Assembly: GCF_038024095.1 (NCBI RefSeq)
Contig: NZ_CP150668.1
Location: 1,426,001-1,490,000, forward strand
Reading direction: 5' to 3'
Source of the DNA: Polaribacter tangerinus
GTDB lineage: Bacteria > Bacteroidota > Bacteroidia > Flavobacteriales > Flavobacteriaceae
DNA: 64,000 bases
Shown here: piece by piece, positions 27,968 to 42,129 of the stretch
How positions within the stretch are numbered: the first letter of the stretch is position 1
Layout: each line of letters starts with the position of its first letter
The notes under the pieces: model-generated
The model's database searches: none
Told to the model about the DNA's origin: nothing
The model's input: only the letters and a program-made list of their open reading frames with translations
Position numbers and translations under genes: made by a program

Positions 27968-30196
27968 TTAATTATCTAATTTTTTTAAAATTATTAGGGC
28001 TTGCTTTCCTTGTGCTGTGGTAGGGTAATTAACCGCTACAAACTCCAAGGATTTTTTGTAGTTTTCTTTGGTGTCACTTTTTCCTATAGCATAGGCTTTT
28101 ATCAATTGTAACTTAGGAACCAATTTCGAGTTTTTTACAAATGGTAAAATGTTAATTACCCTGTCTATTACTTCGCTATAATTCTCTTTTTTGTACAAAT
28201 AATAAATGTCTTTATATAATTTTTCTGTGGCCGTTTCTTCTTTAGCATCAGTAATTTTTTTCTCAGGATTTTTTATAATCTGAGCAAAAACTGTTGTTGG
28301 ATACTCTGTAAGAATTACATTTTTATAAATTGCCGCTTTCTCCTTATTGTTTAGTTCTTTATAAATTTCATATAAATGCCAATTTGCAGGCAGTATTAAT
28401 TCTTTTGAACTAGCAAACTTTAAAACACTCTCCAACCTATCTATGGCTAACTTTTTATTGTTAAACTGGGTTTTATAAATCAATCCTAATTCGAACAAGC
28501 CCTTGTTTCTGTCTTGTATTAATGTGTCTATTTTTTTTGCTGATGTTGGTATGGATGCCAAATAACTCTCTAAATTATAACGTTCGTTTTTCTGTGCGAC
28601 GATAGCCGAATCTTTTGTGGTTTTAGATAATTTTGCTTGAAAAGACCAACGCCAATCATCTGCCAATTGTCTTTTTCCCCATATTTTTTGAAATTCTGTT
28701 TTCCCAAAACCTAAAGATTTGATATTGTAAAAATACCATTTTCCTTTATTTATTGATTGTAAAGAATTGGTGTTTCCTGCAAACGCAATTTGGTTTAACC
28801 TTAATTGAGCTGCTTCGGCATCCTTTTTCTTTAAAGTTGCTATAAAATCTTCAAAATACTCTTTTTGTGCTTCTTTTGGCATTGCAGCAATTTTTAAAAT
28901 ACTGTCATTTTTAGCCACCAATTTTTCATATTTTATAAGTGATGCCAAGTTTTTATGCTTTCTTTTTACTTTTCTAACACGCAAGTTTAAACTATCGGTA
29001 GAAGTTTTTACAACACTATCATAATAACTACTTGCTAACATATAATCTGAATTTTTAAAGTAGATATTTCCTAGTTTTTCAAAAGTAAGAACTTGCTGCT
29101 TTTCTTCGGTATTTTTTGCTCTTAAAGATTTATTGTAAGTAGCAATTGCGAGAGAAATTGAGTCTTGTTTCTCATATAAATTTGCTAGTTGATAATACAA
29201 TTTATTCAAATAAGGCCTATTTTCTCTTTTCTTAATTAACTTTTGAAGAGATGCTACATATGTTTCCGATATAGAATCATTATTTGCAATAGTACTTGCC
29301 AAAGCAATATTTGCATGAATTTTGTATTTGTATGGCGCCTTTTTAAATGATATTAGTTTTTGAAAAACCAAAGCTGCTGAATCTTTTTTATTTTCTTTGG
29401 CATACATTTGCCCCAAAATAAACATGTTTCTTGCTGTTTGCTCTTTATTTTTTTGTGTTCTAATAGCTAATTGTAAATGCTTTTTTACTTTTTGTAGGCT
29501 ATCTGCTTTCTGATAAGCCATCGCCAAAGCGGTGTGCCCTTGTTCTTTAATTTTGTCTGGTAAATTAGACTCTAAACTATCTCTTACCTCTAGTAAAAGT
29601 TTTAATGTTTCTATAGCAAATTGCTCGTTATCCATTCTAATATTTGCCTTTGCTCTCCAGATTTTTGTTTCTGCAATTAAACTAGCATTCGGGTAGTTTG
29701 CAATTACATAATTAAATGCCTCTACTGCAGGCACAAATCTTTGGGTGTAATAACGGGCTTTACCGAGTAATAAATAAGCATCATCTATTTGACGGTTTCT
29801 TTCTAAACCATCAATATTCATGGCATGTTTTTGAATAGCTTTTACTGCTTTTTCTTCTGCTCTGTCAAAAGGAGTCGCTGGTTTTTGAGCATCTGTTGCT
29901 GTTTGTGAATTACCAAAACCTGCACCAGGTCCGCTATTTTTAAAGCTGGGCGCAACAATTTTTCGGTCATCAAAAGTAATGGGTTCTATGGGTAATTGCT
30001 CAAACCAATCATCTTTAAAACCGTCTGCTATGCCTTGTAAACCTTCTTCGAAAGCCTCTTCTCCATTAAATAATATGTTATATTTAGTTGTTAAAACATG
30101 ATAATTTCTATTGATAACAGTATCTTTTTTTGTACTACATGCGTACAAAGCAACTGAAACAATAGTAACTAATAATATTTTTAAAGTATATTTCAT
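27968..30196 (-). CDS. sprE: Type IX secretion lipoprotein SprE/PorW (TPR protein)
   Basis: 742 residues with a lipobox at Cys20 (VALYAC). The N-terminus contains the SprE/PorW pattern RNYHVLTTKYNILFNGEEAFEEG and a proline/glycine-rich segment (about 75-110), then many TPR-like helices through the whole protein. SprE is needed for gliding motility and secretion of adhesins in Flavobacterium johnsoniae; PorW is its Porphyromonas counterpart. Its position upstream of bactofilin and the atp genes is a flavobacterial arrangement. Confidence 0.85.
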   Translation of the reverse strand: MKYTLKILLVTIVSVALYACSTKKDTVINRNYHVLTTKYNILFNGEEAFEEGLQGIADGFKDDWFEQLPIEPITFDDRKIVAPSFKNSGPGAGFGNSQTATDAQKPATPFDRAEEKAVKAIQKHAMNIDGLERNRQIDDAYLLLGKARYYTQRFVPAVEAFNYVIANYPNASLIAETKIWRAKANIRMDNEQFAIETLKLLLEVRDSLESNLPDKIKEQGHTALAMAYQKADSLQKVKKHLQLAIRTQKNKEQTARNMFILGQMYAKENKKDSAALVFQKLISFKKAPYKYKIHANIALASTIANNDSISETYVASLQKLIKKRENRPYLNKLYYQLANLYEKQDSISLAIATYNKSLRAKNTEEKQQVLTFEKLGNIYFKNSDYMLASSYYDSVVKTSTDSLNLRVRKVKRKHKNLASLIKYEKLVAKNDSILKIAAMPKEAQKEYFEDFIATLKKKDAEAAQLRLNQIAFAGNTNSLQSINKGKWYFYNIKSLGFGKTEFQKIWGKRQLADDWRWSFQAKLSKTTKDSAIVAQKNERYNLESYLASIPTSAKKIDTLIQDRNKGLFELGLIYKTQFNNKKLAIDRLESVLKFASSKELILPANWHLYEIYKELNNKEKAAIYKNVILTEYPTTVFAQIIKNPEKKITDAKEETATEKLYKDIYYLYKKENYSEVIDRVINILPFVKNSKLVPKLQLIKAYAIGKSDTKENYKKSLEFVAVNYPTTAQGKQALIILKKLDN

Positions 30197-30418: not shown

Positions 30419-31114
30419 TTAAACAGAAAAATAGGCCTCTAACTCTTTTAAAGTTTCTGCAGAAGTTGCTATGTCTTTTACTAAATTTCCTTTATCTAAT
30501 ACCACAATTCGCTCACAAACTTCGGTAACATGGGTTAAATCATGACTAGAAATAAGCACTGTTACTTCTTTGTTATCGGTTAGTGTTTTAATAATATTTT
30601 TTAATCTTATTTGGGTAGTCGGATCTAAATTTGCAAAAGGCTCGTCTAAAATTACTACTTGCGGATTTCCCATCATTGCTGCTACAATGCCAACTTTTTT
30701 CTGATTTCCTTTACTTAAATCTCTTAAATATTTTTTCTTCCCAAGAATTTCATCATTAAAAAAATCTGAAAAATCTGCTAGAAAAGTAGTAATATCGGCA
30801 TTGTTCATTCCTCGTAAATCGCCAATAAACTCAAAATACTCTTCTGGTGTTAAATAACCAATTAAAAAAGATTCATCTATAAAAGAGCCTGTAAAAGATT
30901 TCCAAGTTTCGTTTTCGCTTACTAAAATATCATTGTTTGTAATGCTACCCGTTGTTGGTCTAATTAAGTCTAATAATATATTAAAATAAGTTGTTTTTCC
31001 TGCACCGTTGTTTCCTACTAACCCGAAACTTTGTCCTTTAGGAATTTCTAAAGAGGCAATATTTAAAACAGTGGTTTGTCTGTATTTTTTTGAAAGTTCT
31101 GTAGTCTTTATCAT
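30419..31114 (-). CDS. ABC transporter ATP-binding protein
   Basis: 231 residues, one ATPase domain. Walker A GNNGAGKTT (35-43), signature DLSKGNQKKVG in place of LSGGQ (about 138-148), Walker B VVILDEPFANLDP, and the switch His in ISSHD. This group (with a YxxG-type gap and GNNGAGKTT) drives exporters or membrane remodelling systems. Partner of the permease upstream; the gap is 10 bases. Last gene of the PadR operon. Confidence 0.92.
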   Translation of the reverse strand: MIKTTELSKKYRQTTVLNIASLEIPKGQSFGLVGNNGAGKTTYFNILLDLIRPTTGSITNNDILVSENETWKSFTGSFIDESFLIGYLTPEEYFEFIGDLRGMNNADITTFLADFSDFFNDEILGKKKYLRDLSKGNQKKVGIVAAMMGNPQVVILDEPFANLDPTTQIRLKNIIKTLTDNKEVTVLISSHDLTHVTEVCERIVVLDKGNLVKDIATSAETLKELEAYFSV

Positions 31115-31124
31115 AATGTAATCG

Positions 31125-32591
31125 TTAGTTATTTTGATTAAAAGCGTGTATCATTTTGTATTTAGTAGCGATGTACCTTTTGGTAATTAATTTCATAAAA
31201 ACCTTATGAAAAGCTAGTCCAATAAAGCCTAAAGCTGCAATGGTGAGTGTAGCAATTTCGAAACTTACCCACCAATTTATAAGTGCAAAAAGTGCCATTG
31301 GAAAAGCCATAAGCGGTATTCCTATAAGCCACTGAACGGCTCCAGTGCCTTGATAATTAAAAGCTGCTTTTTGATCTAAATCTATTTTTTTTCTATTAAA
31401 AGACCCTCCTAAAAGCAACACGTAAGTATTTACACCTATGTTATAAATCATTGCTGCAAAATGCACTACTAAAATTTTCCATCCGAAGTATACATAAGGA
31501 ATGCCAAGTAAAAACAGTACAATAACACTTATTGTCATTAATGTAAATTTAGATTTTAAATAGCGTTCGTACTTAAAATTCTGACTCATCAGCATGTTAA
31601 AATATCCACTATCCCAAGCAGGAATAAATTGTCCGAAGTTGATTAAAAAAGCACCCGTAGAAAAAACGCCAATAAAAATAAAAAAGGACTCTTTGTCGGC
31701 ATAAATAGGGTTTGGATAAAATATTAACCCATATAAAAGTGCCATTATTAGCATCCAAACCGAAGATTTTGTTCTCTTGTTTCGCCACATTAAACGCAAA
31801 TCGTTTTTTATAAATGGCGCTACATCACCTAGTTTGTCTGTCCAAGATAAATCGGATGCGTTTACTTGTTTTACTTTTTTAGAAACAACTTCATCTAAAT
31901 AAAATAAACCTAAAAGTTGTTTAAAATTTAAACGATATAAAAACATCAACACAAGAATAGCTATCGTGGCATAAATGGGGTTTTCGTATATATAGTAAAA
32001 CCATTTACCTACATAGGCAGGCAAATTAAATATTTGGTAATATTGTACTAAAAACCCACCAATTAAAAGGACTAATAAGAAGCCAAAAGCACTATTATTT
32101 TTATTGATAAGAAAGTTTAAATAATTTACAATTTGTATGAGTAAAATCATAAAAAATAACCACCCCAAAACTCCTTCTACATCATATCCTTCCTTTATGA
32201 GAACTATGGCAAAAGGAATATAAAAAAAGAGCGACATTATATTGAAAAAAGAGGCTGCAGATTTTATTAAAATATAATGAACTATCGTACTTTTTTTAAT
32301 GTTTAAAGTAAGCAGTGGCTGCACATTCATTAAAGGTAGTTTTTGCATTAAAAACCTAAAAATTAAATCGCCGATTACCGCATATAATAAAAATGAGTTT
32401 ACCACTACAAAAGGGTCTTGTGTTGGGTACATTTCTTTTAAGCCAAAGTATGCACCAATTCCCATTAATAAAAACATAACAACAAAATACAGTGCAAAAA
32501 AGCCAATTAGTATTTTTAAACCTATGCTTTTACCAAAAGAGGCTGCTCTGTAAAACTGTTTCCATTCTAATTTTAAAAAATGTGAAATCAT
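31125..32591 (-). CDS. DUF5687-type ABC transporter permease
   Basis: 488 residues with about twelve hydrophobic helices and a cytoplasmic loop near 235-265. It matches the large, flavobacterial ABC membrane proteins known as DUF5687 in length and in the start ISHFLKLEWKQFYRAASFGKSIGLKIL. It is expected to form the channel with the following ATPase. Cargo is unknown. It follows the last of four small paralogous membrane proteins by 51 bases. Confidence 0.82.
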   Translation of the reverse strand: MISHFLKLEWKQFYRAASFGKSIGLKILIGFFALYFVVMFLLMGIGAYFGLKEMYPTQDPFVVVNSFLLYAVIGDLIFRFLMQKLPLMNVQPLLTLNIKKSTIVHYILIKSAASFFNIMSLFFYIPFAIVLIKEGYDVEGVLGWLFFMILLIQIVNYLNFLINKNNSAFGFLLVLLIGGFLVQYYQIFNLPAYVGKWFYYIYENPIYATIAILVLMFLYRLNFKQLLGLFYLDEVVSKKVKQVNASDLSWTDKLGDVAPFIKNDLRLMWRNKRTKSSVWMLIMALLYGLIFYPNPIYADKESFFIFIGVFSTGAFLINFGQFIPAWDSGYFNMLMSQNFKYERYLKSKFTLMTISVIVLFLLGIPYVYFGWKILVVHFAAMIYNIGVNTYVLLLGGSFNRKKIDLDQKAAFNYQGTGAVQWLIGIPLMAFPMALFALINWWVSFEIATLTIAALGFIGLAFHKVFMKLITKRYIATKYKMIHAFNQNN

Positions 32592-32642
32592 AATGTTAGT
32601 ATATAATTTAGTTATTTATAAGTAGTAAATATATTGTTTTTG

Positions 32643-33350
32643 TTACAACCCTTTTACCAATTTGTATTCTGGATACGTTTCTAACAACAATGCTTCTGCC
32701 TTTTTTGGAATTACATAGGCAGAAACATAAAAGAAAATAAGTAATAAAGTAGTACAAAATGACGTAAGTAGCAACCAGTTATTGTCTAAACTACTAAAAT
32801 TAAATTTCATCATGTTTACAATATTAAATATGTTTACAAAAGCAAGGCTAGAAAACGTTTGCCTTGTGGTGCCAATCATAGCCTCTAATAAAAATACTTT
32901 TTCGTTTTCTATTTTTTTATTTTTTTGATGTTTTCTTTCGCTGTGTTGCTTTATTAAATCTGTAATACAAATAATTAAAAGTGAACCTAACACTATATAT
33001 TCGGAATATGGAATTTTTAAAACCAAATAAAGACCAACAAAAATTGCTATTGTTAGAAGTAGCTTAGGCATGGTAAACCATACCTTAAAAAAACGCCATA
33101 AAATTTTACGATATCTTTTGTTCATCTGCTTTTGTTTGGCGTCTACTACATCCATAAAACCAAAAACACCAAATTTTTTAAAAGATGTATCTCTTGCTTC
33201 TTCAAAAGATAAATTGGGTTGTGTTGCCCAAATTTGCTCAATATCATTTGCCAAATGATCTACCAATTCTGTTTGAATATCGTAATGATATACATAATGT
33301 TGCCTGGTAAACTTATAGAGACTTTGTATTTCTGTTGCTGATAATTTCAT
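32643..33350 (-). CDS. Four-helix membrane protein with HAAS-like N-domain (paralogue D)
   Basis: 235 residues. The N-terminal cytoplasmic domain (1-90) holds the motif shared by four adjacent genes, here YDIQTELVDHLANDIE (about 23-38), and a basic linker. Four membrane helices follow (about 92-110, 115-132, 165-185, 195-220). HAAS-type helical domains occur in membrane proteins beside PadR regulators; the assignment is by motif style and context, not proven. It is last of the four and nearest to the ABC permease. Confidence 0.7.
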   Translation of the reverse strand: MKLSATEIQSLYKFTRQHYVYHYDIQTELVDHLANDIEQIWATQPNLSFEEARDTSFKKFGVFGFMDVVDAKQKQMNKRYRKILWRFFKVWFTMPKLLLTIAIFVGLYLVLKIPYSEYIVLGSLLIICITDLIKQHSERKHQKNKKIENEKVFLLEAMIGTTRQTFSSLAFVNIFNIVNMMKFNFSSLDNNWLLLTSFCTTLLLIFFYVSAYVIPKKAEALLLETYPEYKLVKGL

Positions 33351-33354
33351 GTGT

Positions 33355-34029
33355 TTAAACTACTATATTAGGGTATTGTTTCTGAACCTCTTTCTTGTTT
33401 TTTTGATACACAATAGCACAAGACCAATAACATAAAATTAACAATACCAAAATAACTAAGTGTATATTGTTGTGTGTAGCATTTGCATAACTTTCTTGGT
33501 TTCTAAAAGTGGTAGATTGTGCAAAAAATGAAGCTGATAAATTAACAAACTGAAAAAGAGAATTGTTCATGTTTATTTTTAAAAAAAGTGTATTAGTTTG
33601 TCTGTTTATGAGTAAACGGATTAACAGTGCAATTACAAATATTACATAGAGGTAAATAATAAGTCCGAAAAAATCTTCTGAACTACTAAACCAATTCATA
33701 ATTAAATACAAAACATAAAATAATGCACCAGAGATTATAATTTTAGGTAATTTAAAAAATTGCCAAAAATGTTTTAAAGACATTTTAAAAAATTGCTTTT
33801 GTACATTGTTTGTCTTTTCTTTTAAAAGTTTACTAAAACCATTTTTTGAAAAGTTTTTATGAATATGCCGAATCTCACTTTTAAAATCTAATGTTGGATT
33901 CTCGTCTAGTTTGTTTTCTAAAATATTGGCAAAATGATCTACAATTTCTGCTCTAACATCGTAATACTTTATGCCAGAAACATAAATATAGTTATCTATT
34001 TGCAATAGCTGTTCTTTGGTTAATTGCAT
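33355..34029 (-). CDS. Four-helix membrane protein with HAAS-like N-domain (paralogue C)
   Basis: 224 residues, same plan as its neighbours: YYDVRAEIVDHFANILE at about 22-38, then a basic stretch and four hydrophobic helices, the third being weak. Its start overlaps the end of paralogue B by 10 bases, and 4 bases separate it from D. Confidence 0.7.
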   Translation of the reverse strand: MQLTKEQLLQIDNYIYVSGIKYYDVRAEIVDHFANILENKLDENPTLDFKSEIRHIHKNFSKNGFSKLLKEKTNNVQKQFFKMSLKHFWQFFKLPKIIISGALFYVLYLIMNWFSSSEDFFGLIIYLYVIFVIALLIRLLINRQTNTLFLKINMNNSLFQFVNLSASFFAQSTTFRNQESYANATHNNIHLVILVLLILCYWSCAIVYQKNKKEVQKQYPNIVV

Positions 34030-34679
34030 TTCCCTAAAAGTTTATAGTTTCTAATTACTCTTTGATGTTTTTTGTAGAAAATATAATAATTACATACAGA
34101 AAATAAATAAGCAGAAAACATACTAATATGTATTGCATTTATTTCTTTAGGGTTGCTAAGAAATACCATAGCTACTAATAAACCAAGAAATACATTTAAA
34201 CTTTGTGTTTTTAAAACAAAACTAAATGTTGTTTTATGTGTGTTTGTCTTTGTAAAAAAAAGATAAAAGAAAGTAAAAAGTGCACTAATTATAACAGCTT
34301 TAAAAACTACTACAGGAAAAAATTCTATCGTGCTTTTAACTGAATAATTAAAAGAAGATAACGTAATTAATGGAAAAAAGTACGAAAATAGTAACGTGAA
34401 AAAATATTTCTTATAAATTTTTTTGGCTTTGTTAATTATAATTCTGGGTGCAGAAAAGTGTAGGCCGAAGTACAAACTAGAAGATTCATCTAATTGATGA
34501 TTCCATAACTTTTTAACTTGACAAAAAGCAACTGAAAAGTCTATATTTTTATTTTCAATCTTTTCTTCAATATCTGAAATAATATGATCTAATATTTCAG
34601 ACCTGATATCTAAATAATTAAAGTTTTTAACCTCTAAATATTTTTCTACTAAATAAGTTTGCCTAGCTGTTAATTGCAT
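34020..34679 (-). CDS. Four-helix membrane protein with HAAS-like N-domain (paralogue B)
   Basis: 219 residues with YLDIRSEILDHIISDIE at about 22-38 and four hydrophobic helices from about 90. The N-terminal MQLT start is shared with paralogue C, suggesting that these two split most recently. Its ATG overlaps the stop of paralogue A (TAATG), so translation is coupled. Confidence 0.7.
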   Translation of the reverse strand: MQLTARQTYLVEKYLEVKNFNYLDIRSEILDHIISDIEEKIENKNIDFSVAFCQVKKLWNHQLDESSSLYFGLHFSAPRIIINKAKKIYKKYFFTLLFSYFFPLITLSSFNYSVKSTIEFFPVVVFKAVIISALFTFFYLFFTKTNTHKTTFSFVLKTQSLNVFLGLLVAMVFLSNPKEINAIHISMFSAYLFSVCNYYIFYKKHQRVIRNYKLLGKCN

Positions 34680-35332
34680 TATTTGTATAGTTTTTTTAGT
34701 GAATTTAACTTAATAATTGTTTTTTTATACAATCTATAACCAGAGTAAAAGGCAACATAATGAATCATCAAAAGAAAAAACCAACCTACCTTCTGAATGG
34801 TTTCTGGTAAATGACTAAAAAAAGTTGGAAAGACATTTAATATCAAAAAACTCAATACCAAATATATAGTACTGTAATCTAAATTTACAGACCGACCATA
34901 CTTTTTGTTTGATGATTTAATAAACTCAATTAACACAAGTGTTAAAGGAGTGACAAATAGAGTAAAGCACACTACTTCAAATTGCTGAAAAGTAATATTT
35001 TCAGATAAAATATAAAGTAACATAGTTGCACTTAAAAAAAGAATAACATTTTTAACACACTTAAAAAAATTCAAAAACCCTTTGTGATACTCTCTTCTAA
35101 ACCAAGTATTTACATTTTTCCACCCTAAGGCATTTAAGTAGGCTAAATTTCCTAACCAACCTATCTCTACCAAAGAATTCTTAAAAGCACTTTTGAAATT
35201 AATAGATTTAGAATCATGCTCAATAATAGACACAATATGGTCTATCATCTCAATTCTTAGATCCCAATATTTTATTCCTTTCTTTTTAAGGTACTCATCT
35301 ATAAATACTATTTCTTTTTCACTAATATCCAT
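34679..35332 (-). CDS. Four-helix membrane protein with HAAS-like N-domain (paralogue A)
   Basis: 217 residues with YWDLRIEMIDHIVSIIE at about 22-38 and four hydrophobic helices (about 90-110, 117-138, 155-172, 183-203). First of the four and one base behind the PadR gene, so its synthesis is tied to the regulator. The conserved Asp-His in all four copies is the clearest candidate functional pair. Confidence 0.7.
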   Translation of the reverse strand: MDISEKEIVFIDEYLKKKGIKYWDLRIEMIDHIVSIIEHDSKSINFKSAFKNSLVEIGWLGNLAYLNALGWKNVNTWFRREYHKGFLNFFKCVKNVILFLSATMLLYILSENITFQQFEVVCFTLFVTPLTLVLIEFIKSSNKKYGRSVNLDYSTIYLVLSFLILNVFPTFFSHLPETIQKVGWFFLLMIHYVAFYSGYRLYKKTIIKLNSLKKLYK

Positions 35333-35333
35333 C

Positions 35334-35672
35334 TTATTCTAAACTAAATTTCGGATTTACCAAGTGTTGCATCGTTCTTAAAAACTCTTGCATTTCGGCT
35401 AATTTATGTACCGTTTCTTTTGTGCCACTATCTGTTAACTTATAATACTTTCTTAATCTATTACCTACTTTTGCAACCTCTACCTCTAACAAACCATCGG
35501 CCTCTAATTTATGTAATGCTGGGTACAAAGCGCCCTCGGTAATTTTTAATTCTCCTTTAGTTATTTCTTTTACATGTTGTGTAATTTCATAACCATACAT
35601 TTTACTATTGCTAGCCAATAATTTTAATATAATAGTTTGTAAAGAACCTTTGTATAATTTTTGATTTCCCAT
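35334..35672 (-). CDS. PadR family transcriptional regulator
   Basis: 112 residues, the short PadR form. The winged HTH includes QTIILKLLASNSKMYGYEITQHVKEITKG (about 11-39) and ITEGALYPALHKLEADGLLEVE (40-61), followed by the wing and a C-terminal dimerisation helix (80-105). PadR proteins repress neighbouring transporter genes and release DNA on binding a ligand. It leads a seven-gene operon and most likely controls it through the inverted repeat at 35756-35778. Confidence 0.93.
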   Translation of the reverse strand: MGNQKLYKGSLQTIILKLLASNSKMYGYEITQHVKEITKGELKITEGALYPALHKLEADGLLEVEVAKVGNRLRKYYKLTDSGTKETVHKLAEMQEFLRTMQHLVNPKFSLE

Positions 35673-35751
35673 AGTATGGTTTGTACTTTTTAATGGCTAC
35701 TATTTTTAAGTTAAAATGTAGTTTTTTACTTCTAGATTAATAATGATAAAA

Positions 35752-35778
35752 CAAATATACATAATTTTCTTATGTATA
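35752..35778 (-). promoter_or_regulatory. PadR operon promoter with overlapping perfect inverted repeat
   Basis: The -7 box reads TATATTTG on the minus strand (35752-35759), 80 bases before the PadR start. A perfect inverted repeat, TATACATAA (35756-35764) and TTATGTATA (35770-35778) with a 5-base spacer, overlaps this box and fills the spacer towards a weak -33 (TTTT, 18 bases upstream). A protein bound here would block RNA polymerase. Confidence 0.7.
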
Positions 35779-35811
35779 AAACTCTTAGGTATGTTGTTTT
35801 TTTGAAAAAAA

Positions 35812-37334: not shown

Positions 37335-37796
37335 TTAATAAATACCTTTAATTTTTATCTGCTTTCCGTTTATATTTATAACCTCATTTTGTTGCTTTCC
37401 TAACAATAATTTACCTAATGGTGATGCCGCAGAAATTGCATAAAATTCTTGATTATCTACTACTAATTTACCTGCAGAAATTAAAAGAAAATAAGTATGT
37501 AAATCTGTATAAATAATACTTCCTAAATGCACATTTTTAGCATTTTTATTATGGTTTCCTGCAGCAGAAAACCGTTCTAGAACAAGCTTCATTTTTTGAA
37601 CATTAGCAAGCTGTAACCCTGCCTTTTCCATTTCTAACTGCAACATAGCCCTTCCTGTTTCATGCTTATCTCCGGCAGAGCTTTTTGTTTCTGATAATAA
37701 TGCCTTTCTGTTAGAAGTAATAATAGCGTTTATTGTTTGTAATTGGGTATTTACAAAAGTGGCACAAAGAGCAAAAAGTTGTTCTTTAACTTGCAT
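37335..37796 (-). CDS. GreA/GreB C-terminal-like protein
   Basis: 153 residues. The N-terminal half is helical (ETKSSAGDKHETGRAMLQLEMEKAG, 36-60); the C-terminal half (about 85-150) resembles the FKBP-like end of transcription factors GreA/GreB, with VHLGSIIYT, YFLLISAGK and ISAASPLGKLLLGKQ. Databases often name relatives '3-oxoacyl-ACP synthase', which the sequence does not support: no thiolase fold and no catalytic Cys/His. It overlaps the phosphopantetheinyl transferase gene by 11 bases. Confidence 0.7.
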   Translation of the reverse strand: MQVKEQLFALCATFVNTQLQTINAIITSNRKALLSETKSSAGDKHETGRAMLQLEMEKAGLQLANVQKMKLVLERFSAAGNHNKNAKNVHLGSIIYTDLHTYFLLISAGKLVVDNQEFYAISAASPLGKLLLGKQQNEVININGKQIKIKGIY

Positions 37797-38358
37797 AATT
37801 TCCTTTTAAAATAGCATAAGCAGCAAAATTACCGTGGTGTGATTTAGAAATAGAAATTGTGTTTTCTGTTGAAGCTAGATAAAGTTTTGGTACCCCTAAT
37901 GTAGATTTTTTAATAAATGATTTGTTAGAAAAGTTGGCTGAAATTTTAGCATTTAAAAACTCAGAAGAGTTTGTGCCTTTTTCCAAGCTACAAATGGCAA
38001 ATTTTACATTGTCTAGAATATTATTTGATGCTATTGTATGAATATATGCTGATGTTATTTTCGAAGAGGTAAAATAAGTGTAAGTGTCTATAGAAACCAC
38101 CCCTGTTCTTTTGGTTAGCATTTTGCTAACAAATTTTTTAGGAGCAAAAAACCTTTTTTCCACTTTTTGAGTATAGCATTTATAGGCTGCTTCTTTCATG
38201 CTCCAATACAATAATACTTGTAAAAAAGGTCTTTCATGCATCAAAATACTATGAATTTCTTTGGGTGTAAATTGTTTTTCTAAAAAGCCTTTTCGCATCC
38301 AGTTTGTTTGCGACTTTGCTAACTTTATATCAACAATATCATTGCCTACATTACTCAT
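37786..38358 (-). CDS. 4'-phosphopantetheinyl transferase superfamily protein
   Basis: 190 residues. It moves phosphopantetheine from CoA to the Ser of an acyl carrier protein. Magnesium and substrate motifs: VGNDIVDIK (3-11) and WSMKEAAYKC (about 54-63, the KEA motif). It overlaps both neighbours, the carrier protein gene (8 bases) and the GreA-like gene. It most likely activates the carrier encoded next to it. Confidence 0.88.
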   Translation of the reverse strand: MSNVGNDIVDIKLAKSQTNWMRKGFLEKQFTPKEIHSILMHERPFLQVLLYWSMKEAAYKCYTQKVEKRFFAPKKFVSKMLTKRTGVVSIDTYTYFTSSKITSAYIHTIASNNILDNVKFAICSLEKGTNSSEFLNAKISANFSNKSFIKKSTLGVPKLYLASTENTISISKSHHGNFAAYAILKGNYAS

Positions 38359-38602
38359 GTAACTTTTGCTTAATTACCGCTATTGTTTCTTTTACAGATA
38401 GCATTTTTTCCATAGAATCGTTATCTATTTGTATATTAAAAGCATCTTCTACATCTAAAATAATATCAACTAAATTGGCAGAATTTATTTCTAAATCATT
38501 TATAAAATCGGTGTTTTCGTTTATGTTTTTTAAAGCTTCTTCATTCTGAACATATGGTGTTACTATAGCCGTTAGCTTTGTGGTAATTTCTTTATTTGTC
38601 AT
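38351..38602 (-). CDS. Acyl carrier protein
   Basis: 83 residues with three-helix ACP layout. The phosphopantetheine site is Ser41 in DLEINSANLVDIIL; the usual DSL is NSA here, marking a specialised carrier rather than the housekeeping AcpP. It lies between a ketosynthase (89-base gap) and its own transferase. Confidence 0.9.
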   Translation of the reverse strand: MTNKEITTKLTAIVTPYVQNEEALKNINENTDFINDLEINSANLVDIILDVEDAFNIQIDNDSMEKMLSVKETIAVIKQKLHE

Positions 38603-38691
38603 TTTTAAAATTTTCTATTGTTCCTGCAAAAAAGGAAAAAATATTATCTACTAATTTAATAATTAAAAATAACCTTTTTAAAATAAAGAAG

Positions 38692-39966
38692 CTATGAATA
38701 CTTTTTAAAAATAACACAGGCATTTACATCTCCAAAACCAAAGCTTGCTTTTGCAACAATCTGTAACTCTTTTTTTAACATCGCTGTCGGTATTTTGCTA
38801 GGAGAAATAAGCTTGGTGATTTCAGGATGAATGTCGTCGCAATTTATATTAGGAAACACAAATTGTTCTTTAATTTGCAAAACTGAAGCCACAGACTCTA
38901 TAGCGCCAGAGGCCGCTAAACAATGACCAATCATTGATTTTAATGAGTTAATTAACGGAAAATTATCTTCATTTCTTTGCAAAGCTTTTGTCCAATTTTC
39001 TATTTCCAAAGCATCTTTAGTTGTAGCAGTTAAATGCCCATTTATAAGATCTATATCATTGGCAGCTATTTTAGCATCTGCAATTGCATTTGTAATACAT
39101 TTTTGAACCGCTAAAGCATTTGGTGCCGTTAATGTACCTCCATTTCTTTGCCCACCAGAATTTATATTTCCACCTAAAACCTCTGCATAAATAGGTGCGT
39201 TTCTCTCTAAAGCACTCTCTAAAGACTCTAAAACTAGCGCACCGGCACCGCTTCCTGGTACAAAGCCAGCCGCTGTTTTACTCATTGGTCTTGAACCTTT
39301 TTCTGGATTTTCGTTATATTTATAACTCATTACTCTCATAGCATCGAAACCTCCCCAAGTGTACAAACTACTATCACTAGAACTACCCACTAACATTCTT
39401 TTTGCTTTGCCTGCTTGTATTCTTTCAAAACCTAATAGTAGTGCTTCTGTACCAGTAGTACATGCCGACGAGTTGGTGGTTACAATGTTTCCAAGACCTA
39501 GAATTCCACCTAAATAAGCAGATACTCCGCTTGCCATTGTTTGTACGACAGACGTGCTACCTAAACGTCTTACATTTAGGTCGTCAATCTTGTAAATAGC
39601 CTCTCTAAACTTTTCTATCCCAGAGGTTCCTGTTCCAAAGATTAGGCCCGTATCATAATCTAAATCTGATTTTTCATCAACTATAAAACCGGCATCTTTC
39701 CATGCATCTATACCTGCCATACACCCATACAAAATAGAGGTGCTATGAAAACCTCGTAATTGTAAAGGAGTTAAATATGCTGCTTTTTGGGTTTCGGAAA
39801 CACTCGGAATTCCACCAATACAACAAGAAAAACCTTTGTCTTTTAAATGCTGATGAAATGCAATGCCCGAAACACCTTTTTTTAAAGAATCTGTAAAGTT
39901 TTTTAAACCCACTCCGTTCGGTGCCACCACACCTAACCCAGTAATTACTACTCTATTTTTCATCAT
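38692..39966 (-). CDS. Beta-ketoacyl-ACP synthase (FabF/KAS II-like)
   Basis: 424 residues, full-length. Condenses an acyl group with malonyl-ACP. Catalytic triad is present: Cys169 (TTNSSACTTGTEA), His311 (NGHLTATTKDALE, where typical enzymes have HGT), and His348 (SMIGHCLAASGAIE). Internal position suggests a dedicated pathway with the adjacent carrier protein and hotdog enzyme. No chain-length-factor partner is seen. Confidence 0.9.
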   Translation of the reverse strand: MMKNRVVITGLGVVAPNGVGLKNFTDSLKKGVSGIAFHQHLKDKGFSCCIGGIPSVSETQKAAYLTPLQLRGFHSTSILYGCMAGIDAWKDAGFIVDEKSDLDYDTGLIFGTGTSGIEKFREAIYKIDDLNVRRLGSTSVVQTMASGVSAYLGGILGLGNIVTTNSSACTTGTEALLLGFERIQAGKAKRMLVGSSSDSSLYTWGGFDAMRVMSYKYNENPEKGSRPMSKTAAGFVPGSGAGALVLESLESALERNAPIYAEVLGGNINSGGQRNGGTLTAPNALAVQKCITNAIADAKIAANDIDLINGHLTATTKDALEIENWTKALQRNEDNFPLINSLKSMIGHCLAASGAIESVASVLQIKEQFVFPNINCDDIHPEITKLISPSKIPTAMLKKELQIVAKASFGFGDVNACVIFKKYS

Positions 39967-40008
39967 GCAACATCGTTTTTAAAATTTATACAGATTTTTT
40001 AAATCCAT

Positions 40009-40452
40009 TTATTCTACTATAACCATTCCAGCTATTTCACCTTTACAAACTAGTTTACCTTTTTCATTTTTCATTTTTACATGGCATTTTAATTTATTGA
40101 ATCTAAAATATTCTTTTTCTGAAACTACCGTTATTTTTTCATTCGGATAAACTGGTAAAAAAAAATCTATTTTACTTGATGTAAGGGCTATTTTTGGCAA
40201 TTTTTTTTCCGATAGGATTGCTTCTTTTAGAAGAAAAATACCCAAACAAACAAGCCCTATCTGCGCCATTGTTTCGGTTAAAATTACGCCAGGTGTAACA
40301 GGATTATTTTTAAAATGACCTTTGTAAAAATAACTGTTCTCGTGAAATGTATAATTGCCAGTAACTCCATTTTCTGAAACTTCTGTAAGCTCATCTACAA
40401 ATAAAAAAGGCTTTTGATAAGGTAATTTGGCAAAAATCTGCTTGGTAGTCAT
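40009..40452 (-). CDS. FabZ-like hotdog dehydratase
   Basis: 147 residues with the hotdog pattern YKGHFKNNPVTPGVILTETMAQIG (about 43-66): catalytic His in GHF and Glu in LTET, as in FabZ/FabA dehydratases of 3-hydroxyacyl-ACP. First gene of the five-gene carrier-protein operon. Thioesterase activity would be an alternative for this fold, but the His/Glu pair favours a dehydratase. Confidence 0.85.
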   Translation of the reverse strand: MTTKQIFAKLPYQKPFLFVDELTEVSENGVTGNYTFHENSYFYKGHFKNNPVTPGVILTETMAQIGLVCLGIFLLKEAILSEKKLPKIALTSSKIDFFLPVYPNEKITVVSEKEYFRFNKLKCHVKMKNEKGKLVCKGEIAGMVIVE

Positions 40453-40519
40453 TTATTCTCTATTATAATCAATTTCGTTAAAGTTATAAAAATAAACAAT
40501 TAAAATTAGGACTATATAA

Positions 40520-40556
40520 AAAATAGCTGAGCAGTTATTAACTACTCAGCTATTTT
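40520..40556 (-). terminator. Terminator of the TonB/GDSL operon
   Basis: Stem of 12 bp (AAAATAGCTGAG at 40520-40531 with its complement at 40545-40556), with a further AGTT/AACT pair inside. A T-run follows on the minus strand. It is 26 bases past the GDSL gene stop. Confidence 0.87.
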
Positions 40557-40581
40557 ATAACTATTTAAAAATAAAAAGTTT

Positions 40582-42129
40582 TTATCTTAAGGCAGCAGAA
40601 TATATTGCTGGATAATCATCTGCCTTTGCCAAACCATTGGTAGCTGTGGTAAAATTAGAACCAAATTTAATATCTATCGCTTCTAAAATTTTGTTAGCCA
40701 TTAAAGCATAACCTCTACCTGTTAAGTGAATTCCGTCTAAACTAACCAAACCACCGGTTACTAAACCAGTTGTCATATTATAGTTATCGAATTTAATTCC
40801 GTTTGTTGCTTCTCTTAAAATAGCATTTAAATCTACCAAAGCAACATTATCATTGGCGCCTGCAACAGATACTATTGTTTCATTATAAGCAGTAGTTGCT
40901 TTTTGAATACTTGCTAGTTCTGTAGCAGTAATCACCCACTTGTCTTCTAGTGGTAATGCAACACCATTAACACTCAAAGGATTGTTAGGATTTGCTAAAG
41001 TTCCTATAAAAGAAGAGCTTGGCAACACTAATAAATCATCTGCAGTGGCTTGTCTGTACTGTGGTAGCATTGCAAAAGCAGGATTAATAGCTCCTAAATT
41101 TGTTAAATCTTCATCTACAATAACCACCGCATTTTGTCCTGCAGCGAAAGATATTGTTCGTTTTGCAACCTCTGCATCTGCTTGTTCTTTAGTAAAAACA
41201 CCTGCTTGTACCAATGCTCCGAATGCTTGTTGAATTCCTCCATTATACTGTGCATAGGCTCCATTTACAGCTGCAGCTGTTGCTGCATCTAAAGGCACAG
41301 GATTGTATGGCACTGTGGTAAAATAAGGCAATAAAGTAATGTCTGGTACTGTGGCAATAACTCCTTTTGCACCTCCGGCAGTCATGGCATCTACCATGCC
41401 AGTAAATACTTGGTTAAATACTAACGGATTTGTAATATCGTTTGGCCCGTAAGTTGCAGGATTTAAATTCCCTGTAGGGTTGGCTGCTGTTGGAGATTGA
41501 TCTACACCAACTCCTCCTGAAGTTGCATAACCTAAAACATCATTTCCACCAACTTCCGAAAGGGTAAAAAATGTTGGTTGTTGCGTCATTGCGTCTGCTA
41601 TAACACTTGTAGATGCGCTAGATGCCATTCTTCCGAAATAAGGATTTAAAGTACCATAACCAGCAAAAGTTAAGTGAAAACTTTTTGCTCCAGGAACTCC
41701 AAAATTATTAAAAGAAGTACCTGCTGCTCTTTGACCAATAACAGTTGTTGGTGTTGCGTTTAATCTTGCAGGTCCTGCACCATTAAAAAACAATCTTGGT
41801 TCTTGTGCTACGTTTCCTGCTAACACTAAACCACCAATATTATCATTCATTAAAGGTTGATTAAAATCGCCACCACCTGCCATTGCAAACTTCTTAGCAA
41901 GTGTATTTGGAAAAGAGTTTTCTTGTGCTTTAATAAAAAGTGCACCATCTGTAAAACCTGCGGTAAATGAAGCACCTACAGCCACATATTTAGAAAAGTC
42001 TAATCCGTTTGCATTTAATGCTACTACCGGAGGTGTTTCTTCTAAAATTGGGTCTAGTTCATTGTTTACATCACAAGAAGCAACACCAATTGATAAAAGA
42101 AATAATCCTATATATTTATAATTTTTCAT
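40582..42129 (-). CDS. SGNH/GDSL-like hydrolase lipoprotein
   Basis: 515 residues with a lipobox at Cys19 (GVASC). SGNH blocks: YVAVGASFTAGF (about 49-60; the usual GDS is GAS, keeping nucleophile Ser54), SEVGGNDVLGYAT near 192 (Gly-Asn block), and DGIHLTGRGYALMA near 478 with Asp and His. These enzymes cleave esters of lipids or sugars. An insertion of about 250 residues separates the blocks. It is 18 bases behind the TonB receptor, so both likely serve one substrate. Confidence 0.85.
   Translation of the reverse strand: MKNYKYIGLFLLSIGVASCDVNNELDPILEETPPVVALNANGLDFSKYVAVGASFTAGFTDGALFIKAQENSFPNTLAKKFAMAGGGDFNQPLMNDNIGGLVLAGNVAQEPRLFFNGAGPARLNATPTTVIGQRAAGTSFNNFGVPGAKSFHLTFAGYGTLNPYFGRMASSASTSVIADAMTQQPTFFTLSEVGGNDVLGYATSGGVGVDQSPTAANPTGNLNPATYGPNDITNPLVFNQVFTGMVDAMTAGGAKGVIATVPDITLLPYFTTVPYNPVPLDAATAAAVNGAYAQYNGGIQQAFGALVQAGVFTKEQADAEVAKRTISFAAGQNAVVIVDEDLTNLGAINPAFAMLPQYRQATADDLLVLPSSSFIGTLANPNNPLSVNGVALPLEDKWVITATELASIQKATTAYNETIVSVAGANDNVALVDLNAILREATNGIKFDNYNMTTGLVTGGLVSLDGIHLTGRGYALMANKILEAIDIKFGSNFTTATNGLAKADDYPAIYSAALR

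Follow-up and report, generated by a model that had tools for sequence, protein, structure and literature searches.

We propose, with a probability of about one half, that the locus described here is a PadR-coupled, HAAS-like multi-sensor unit, with a single PadR repressor shared by several membrane proteins. The locus was analysed in a 64,000-nucleotide stretch of the genome of the marine flavobacterium Polaribacter tangerinus (the window), where a padR gene precedes four tandem genes for membrane proteins, M1 to M4, and an ABC pair with a DUF5687 permease. The PadR and M genes form one unit, and the ABC pair is separable from the array and has a leader motif of its own.

Results

The seven genes lie on the minus strand, with the sizes and order that an earlier reading of the sequence alone (the sequence-only reading) had claimed, and the ORF coordinates reproduce its gaps of 1, -1, -10, 4, 51 and 10 bases. 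The 112-aa regulator (35334..35672) belongs to the PadR family (PF03551, E 2.4e-21; 75.9 bits, cut-off 27). From ORFs, alignment and family tree, it is followed by M1 (34679..35332, 217 aa, subfamily K1), with a head of approximately residues 1-80 and then a membrane tail, M2 (34020..34679, 219 aa, subfamily K3) and M3 (33355..34029, 224 aa, subfamily K7). The last gene of the array is M4 (32643..33350, 235 aa), of subfamily K4, the terminal class. The permease (31125..32591, 488 aa; PF18940, E 2.8e-182) and the adjoining ATPase (30419..31114, 231 aa; PF00005, E 1.7e-22) confirm the pair as a DUF5687 ABC-type system. The previously given end of the locus, 35778, takes in the operator described below, and Rfam gave no match within 27-39 kb of the window.

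That the four M proteins of 217-235 residues are paralogous is confirmed by alignment (M2-M4 are 22-23% identical to M1), by BLAST (M4-M3, E 1.7e-11) and by their placement in the same family tree as 216 further M genes, which one HMM had collected. The motif Y-x-D-[IVL]-x-x-E-[ILM]-[VIL]-D-H, reported for all four at residues 22-32, is complete in three, but M4 has H at position 22. Invariant columns among the four proteins are residues M1, D24, E28, D31, H32, E38, F46, F86, F90, F137 and K204; across 57 M sequences of all classes only E28, D31 and H32 are invariant. Of the four membrane helices previously described, three appear as clear segments in each protein, but the fourth falls below the hydropathy threshold. 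K4 members are last in their own array in 31 of 31 cases, and the terminal-class alignment (58 sequences: the window's M4 and the terminal M from 57 of the 80 named loci) has an invariant FGxFGF (F60, G61, F63, G64, F65). A PDB sequence search returned no significant match.

The M head may be HAAS-like, as profile-profile comparison suggests, although direct model searches did not recognise it. HAAS, DUF1700 and perm_prefix models from Pfam and NCBIfam, at E up to 10, matched none of M1-M4 or five diverse relatives, in the same run in which the positive control L123 matched PF22564; any such model was likewise absent among the 25 commonest of the 114 Pfam and 48 NCBIfam families for the 58 terminal-class proteins. 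The GxP motif of the third HAAS helix is absent from M heads, the terminal class having FGxFGF instead. When profiles were aligned, the M head aligned to the HAAS-type perm_prefix profile (29 of 30 loci, L178 left out) over 74 columns with a score of 25.8 and an hhalign probability of 41%, as against a mean of 9.7 and a maximum of 15.5 for 200 column-permuted controls, 15.1 for the reversed profile and 15.3 for a PadR profile. The score against Bacteroidota HAAS (22 HAAS-type loci minus L130, L141 and L149) was 24.7 (37%, 34 columns), that against DUF1700 was 13.4 (0.9%), and a thin HAAS set of eight sequences gave a probability of 0.9%. On the same scale, DUF1700 and perm_prefix score 36.6 (92%), Bacteroidota HAAS and DUF1700 28.7 (69%), and Bacteroidota HAAS and perm_prefix 21.0 (14%). 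The 21 PadRs that score best against the window-type PadR profile all adjoin perm_prefix proteins.

Control by PadR, also part of the sequence-only reading, is supported by a conserved palindrome upstream of padR. In the window this 21-bp operator (35757..35777) reads ATACATAA-N5-TTATGTAT (minus strand ATACATAAGAAAATTATGTAT), and a second, imperfect copy with 3 mismatches (35772-35792) overlaps it 15 bp further upstream. The best site upstream of padR scores 13-16 of 16 in 88 of 90 loci, and the PadR itself has a median identity of 82% to its relatives (68 loci). A TAnnTTTG-type -7 promoter box, TATATTTG (35752..35759, minus strand), shares 3 bp with the downstream end of the operator; such a box, the consensus of which is taken from the available part of PMC9723704, lies in or at an operator-like site (score of at least 12) in 76 of 90 padR upstream regions, and TATATTTG may well act as a promoter. 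Genome-wide there is a single exact operator site. A wider regulon was considered and rejected: with up to 3 mismatches the pattern gave 38/32 hits, and the reversed pattern 30/30.

The M family is present in 51 of 199 family genomes and almost always accompanies PadR: both occur in 49 genomes, M only in 2, PadR only in 5 and neither in 143 (Fisher 3e-38). A standalone padR gene goes with the head protein in 49 of 51 M genomes, the others being G089 and G507, which has a fragment, and 98 of 103 M matches lie within 3.5 kb of a PadR hit. No M was detected in 5 of the 54 PadR genomes. In loci L180 and L181 PadR and the operator are retained immediately in front of DUF5687 and M is absent; PadR therefore serves some purpose without M. 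An array comprises 1-7 M genes, one named locus having 7, and of the 50 genomes whose match is uninterrupted, 41 carry 1-2 copies, seven carry 3 and two carry 4. In view of these counts, the description of a fourfold array as unusual in flavobacteria is partly right.

Head and tail of the M proteins evolve differently, with head identity of 38-77% against tail identity of 19-46%, and the head above the tail in 10 of 10 subfamilies. In three of seven double arrays both heads fall into one clade of two to three genes (L043, 2 genes, support 97; L069, 3 genes, 97; L025, 3 genes, 95), whereas a clade of the two tails is rejected (AU p 2.9e-8, 4.7e-51 and 8.4e-16, respectively); head exchange has therefore taken place in these three arrays. 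It is a minority event: in the other four double arrays the two heads do not group together in the head tree, and for 187 of 197 array genes neither head nor tail has its nearest neighbour in its own array.

The ABC pair is preceded by a conserved leader, TGTAAC-N17-TACTTA (32619..32647, minus strand), with the M4 stop codon TAA inside TGTAAC. This hexamer occurs in 70 of 78 DUF5687 leaders, where it lies at -60 to -45 in 66 cases, and in 8 of 9 unlinked DUF5687 loci; its overall frequency in the loci is 0.27 per kb per strand. The leader is a putative promoter of the pair. Since the pair has this separate leader and no PadR operator, a single seven-gene operon, as first read, is not supported. 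An operator-like match at the DUF5687 leader (13/16 in the window, 9-12 in 21 other loci) was taken as chance. An ECF-sigma promoter was set aside as an idea only; the window leader lacks the CGT box of the ECF motif given in the available part of PMC9723704.

Discussion

According to our hypothesis, PadR would bind the tandem palindrome that covers the padR promoter and keep padR-M1-M2-M3-M4 repressed. The conserved M head would be cytosolic and dock PadR, and the fast-evolving tail would meet a membrane signal, which may be a membrane-active compound or envelope damage. A signalling M protein would remove PadR from the operator, and the operon would thus induce itself. Several M proteins with different tails could then form an OR gate over several stimuli, and selection, together with head exchange by gene conversion in some arrays, would keep the heads compatible with the single PadR as the tails diverge. 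The downstream DUF5687-ATPase exporter, which has a promoter-like leader of its own, would gain further expression through read-through where it is adjacent. We infer this sequence of repression, docking, sensing, release and read-through. A broader version, which we consider decidedly doubtful, is that of a receptor repertoire: one conserved repressor would read a set of membrane receptors; their transducer heads would be kept interchangeable, in part by gene conversion, and their membrane parts would diversify under an arms race against membrane-active agents, so that each lineage would have up to seven detectors of its own.

Several known arrangements resemble the locus. The HAAS-PadR dyad of PspC and DUF1700 types, put forward as an alternative to two-component systems, also has a standalone PadR next to a membrane protein whose N-terminal head is helical, and in the available part of its description (PMC11237479) communication between these two is proposed rather than measured. 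In three annotated DUF1700 examples PadR lies directly upstream of the DUF1700 gene. In contrast to the dyad, HAAS models do not recognise the M heads, up to seven tandem membrane proteins share one PadR, and M1-M4 have no PspC, ToastRack or DUF4097 parts; a true HAAS-PspC-ToastRack protein (PF22564, 27.7 bits, cut-off 27) adjoins another PadR in the same genome. The nearest branch for both M head and PadR is that of PadR with perm_prefix permeases (NF038403, perm_prefix_1), where PadR is found in 23 of 30 loci. There the head sits on a large protein, most open frames being of 800-960 aa, whereas in the window it is joined to a short membrane tail, and a gene of its own encodes the permease. 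The Listeria LltR operon (PadR, DUF1700, DUF4097) is autorepressed and includes a DUF1700 membrane protein, its operon being up ~100-fold in the PadR mutant; it has a single DUF1700 protein, and in the available part of PMC6624303 no array and no ABC pair were seen.

The first alternative, possible if somewhat doubtful, is that the M proteins are outputs rather than sensors: PadR would sense a small molecule in its own pocket, and the M proteins would be membrane-protective or immunity effectors with tails suited to particular membrane-active agents. LmrR-like PadRs sense small molecules in this manner. The genome's only strong operator is that of the padR-M operon, so that on this account derepression would mainly produce M proteins. 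Fast tail evolution, the patchy presence of the family with internal stops in 12 of 103 M matches, and the five genomes with PadR but no detected M are consistent with it, as is a very weak match between M3 and an immunity-protein family of NCBIfam (E 0.019, 14.4 bits, cut-off 350). However, a contact between head and PadR better accounts for head conservation across all subfamilies and for how tightly PadR and M are coupled.

A second alternative, put forward in the sequence-only reading, is that the DUF5687 exporter uses the M proteins as alternative subunits or regulators. Their relatives are indeed syntenic rather than scattered, with DUF5687 in 62 of 80 named loci and M within 300 bp of DUF5687 in 35 of 51 M genomes, and the two are enriched together (47/4/96/52, Fisher 1.1e-4). 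Yet 96 of 143 DUF5687 genomes have no M match, the array is separate from the pair in Tenacibaculum-type loci, and L188 has an array and no pair. Since DUF5687 thus mostly occurs without M, and given the separate Tenacibaculum-type arrays, a need of the transporter for M is not supported; with the separate, operator-free leader of the pair, this makes an accessory role unlikely. The window pair is a plain member of the DUF5687-ATPase family (PF18940) and differs only by the array upstream. Ordinary lineage-specific tandem duplicates under weak constraint, without multi-input logic, would suit the variable copy number, interrupted genes and patchy distribution, but are very improbable in view of old subfamilies including the terminal class, head conservation and exchange, and the conserved PadR and operator.

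In nature many tails occur on one head type with one PadR and one operator, and some heads have been exchanged; head-PadR docking and tail specificity should therefore be separable by simple swaps. The locus is a candidate membrane-stress switch in Flavobacteriaceae; no such switch is described for this family in the titles and abstracts of the literature searched. No paper in the collection searched contains the term DUF5687. An anti-phage system was considered and rejected: in PADLOC the membrane part of M4 matched KwaA weakly (E 2.4e-4), PadR had weak matches to HTH models, and the ATPase had many matches through shared domains. A 742-aa protein, which we take to be 'SprE-like', carries TPR repeats according to Pfam.

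Results and Discussion

The sequence-only reading had described seven tightly packed minus-strand genes, and both the ORFs and their gaps are borne out by our ORF check (30419-35672): PadR, four paralogous membrane proteins (M1-M4, each with a conserved N-terminal head and a variable membrane tail), a DUF5687 permease and an ATPase, the last two being the ABC pair. Family assignment is firm for PadR, for DUF5687 and for the ATPase, and M1-M4 matched no curated family over its cut-off; D24, E28, D31, H32 and E38 are invariant in their aligned heads. The membrane part of M4 (32643-33350) gave a weak PADLOC match to KwaA over residues 117-178 (E 2.4e-4), which probably reflects composition. Searches of the own genome found no additional M genes, a single DUF5687 and, besides the PadR of the window, one other PadR. 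The second PadR (genome C1:532276-532825; loci L002, L123) precedes a 558-aa protein that carries HAAS, PspC and ToastRack domains, and the two are a classical HAAS-PadR dyad, the proposed signalling pair of membrane protein and PadR, in the same genome as the array.

We claim that the M array and its PadR work like such a dyad; the claim concerns their working, not HAAS membership, with HAAS defined as in PMC11237479. As to the HAAS similarity proposed earlier for the M proteins, curated HAAS models failed to match the heads; a profile of 29 permease-prefix (HAAS-type) heads aligned collinearly with the M head over 74 columns, its score of 25.8 exceeding all controls, though at a probability of 41%, and falling among the values obtained for accepted HAAS pairs. 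Independently of this comparison, the top 21 of 51 hits in a PadR profile search were PadRs beside permease-prefix proteins.

According to our hypothesis PadR would repress its own operon, the conserved heads would dock PadR and the variable tails would sense; release of PadR would lead to self-induction and, where the array adjoins the ABC pair, to read-through into the exporter. The titles and abstracts searched contained no description of this array. The main rival explanation is that PadR itself is the sensor and the M proteins an array of effectors, and it is favored by the occurrence of PadR without M in some genomes. Among 199 family genomes (M in 51, close PadR in 54, DUF5687 in 143), PadR and M go together, with both in 49, M only in 2, PadR only in 5 and neither in 143. 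In the PadR-only genomes PadR lies directly before DUF5687 (L180, L181), is separated from it by a ∼135-aa gene (L182, L183), or occurs without it (L184). M and DUF5687 are enriched together yet separable (both 47, M only 4, DUF5687 only 96, neither 52), as in L188, where PadR and two M genes occur without DUF5687. No more than 300 bp separated M from DUF5687 in 35 of the 51 M genomes, some of the rest being split over contigs, and 12 of 103 M matches had internal stops.

Conservation differs along the locus and within the M proteins. Median identity to the window across 68 loci was 82 for PadR, 78 for the ATPase, 53 for DUF5687 and 48 for the terminal (last-in-array) M, PadR exceeding the ATPase in 59; a neighboring thioredoxin was as conserved as PadR (median 84, 23 loci). 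A tree of 220 M genes resolved ten supported groups and left some genes ungrouped; most members of K4, K5, K6, K9 and K10 close their arrays, which members of the five others almost never do. Heads were more similar than tails within every group, and ten profiled same-array pairs had similar heads and much less similar tails. Nearest head and nearest tail both lay outside the own array for 187 of 197 array genes, the own array supplying the head alone for 8 and the tail alone for 2. Head clades of 2, 3 and 3 genes hold both terminal-class heads of L043, L069 and L025 (support 97, 97 and 95), and their tails were rejected as clades, the pairs having been chosen after the heads were seen; we read this as head gene conversion. 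In four of the seven arrays with two terminal-class genes the head tree does not join the pair.

M was present in 20 of 39 related genomes (the window's own counted), including 17 of the 24 classed as own or same genus, and the regions fetched showed three layouts: an array that lies upstream of the ABC pair, an array located elsewhere in the genome, and an ABC pair with no array. In other families, L040 and L041 carry PadR and one M without the ABC pair, and L039 carries PadR and an M-like ORF of 139 aa. A scan of species genomes confirmed 302 loci, of which the best 80 were used (7 from genomes already in the earlier relatives set); these belong to Polaribacter, Tenacibaculum, Winogradskyella, Lacinutrix, Lutibacter and other genera, which we take to be Flavobacteriaceae. 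Among these best 80, PadR occurs in 78 (the sequences of the exceptions, L042 and L056, start near M) and DUF5687 in 62; of the 18 others, three sequences stop shortly past M (L063, L112, L114) and Tenacibaculum accounts for 14 of the remaining 15. Fragments included, they hold one M ORF in 17 loci, two in 28, three in 25, four in 4, five in 4, and six and seven in one each. At L023/L076 and L185 the M genes are interrupted and PadR and DUF5687 intact, signs of ongoing loss.

The palindromic operator upstream of padR consists of two overlapping sites 15 bp apart, and the genome holds one exact site. Out of 16, the best site per locus scored 16 in 34 of 90 loci, 15 in 38, 14 in 13 and 13 in 3, the lowest being 11 (L048) and 10 (L040). 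The box TAnnTTTG, given as the -7 consensus of Flavobacterium psychrophilum in PMC9723704, occurs in 77 of 90 padR upstream regions, in or at the operator site in 76; the window's own box shares 3 bp with the operator.

Between -200 and +90, TGTAAC was found in 70 of 78 DUF5687 leaders, 66 of them at -60 to -45, and the stop codon of the window's M4 falls within it. At five of the eight loci whose leader lacks it, an inserted gene of 134-137 aa separates DUF5687 from the last M (about 6.73-7.15 kb in L088, L108, L110, L115 and L118; DUF2059 in the one tested, L088). Of the 9 leaders that are not linked to an array, 8 retain TGTAAC, so the motif belongs to the ABC pair.

In many mapped loci of the best 80 of 302 the ABC pair is followed by a 742-aa TPR protein (27968-30196 in the window), which we assume to be SprE/PorW-like; the exporter would thus adjoin a gene for type IX secretion or for gliding. 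At 37335-42129, Pfam places in a row a phosphopantetheinyl transferase, a beta-ketoacyl synthase, a FabA-like dehydratase and a GDSL-like protein, together with a small acyl-carrier-like ORF, itself without a Pfam match, after the transferase; we presume this to be perhaps a pigment cluster of the aryl-polyene or flexirubin type.
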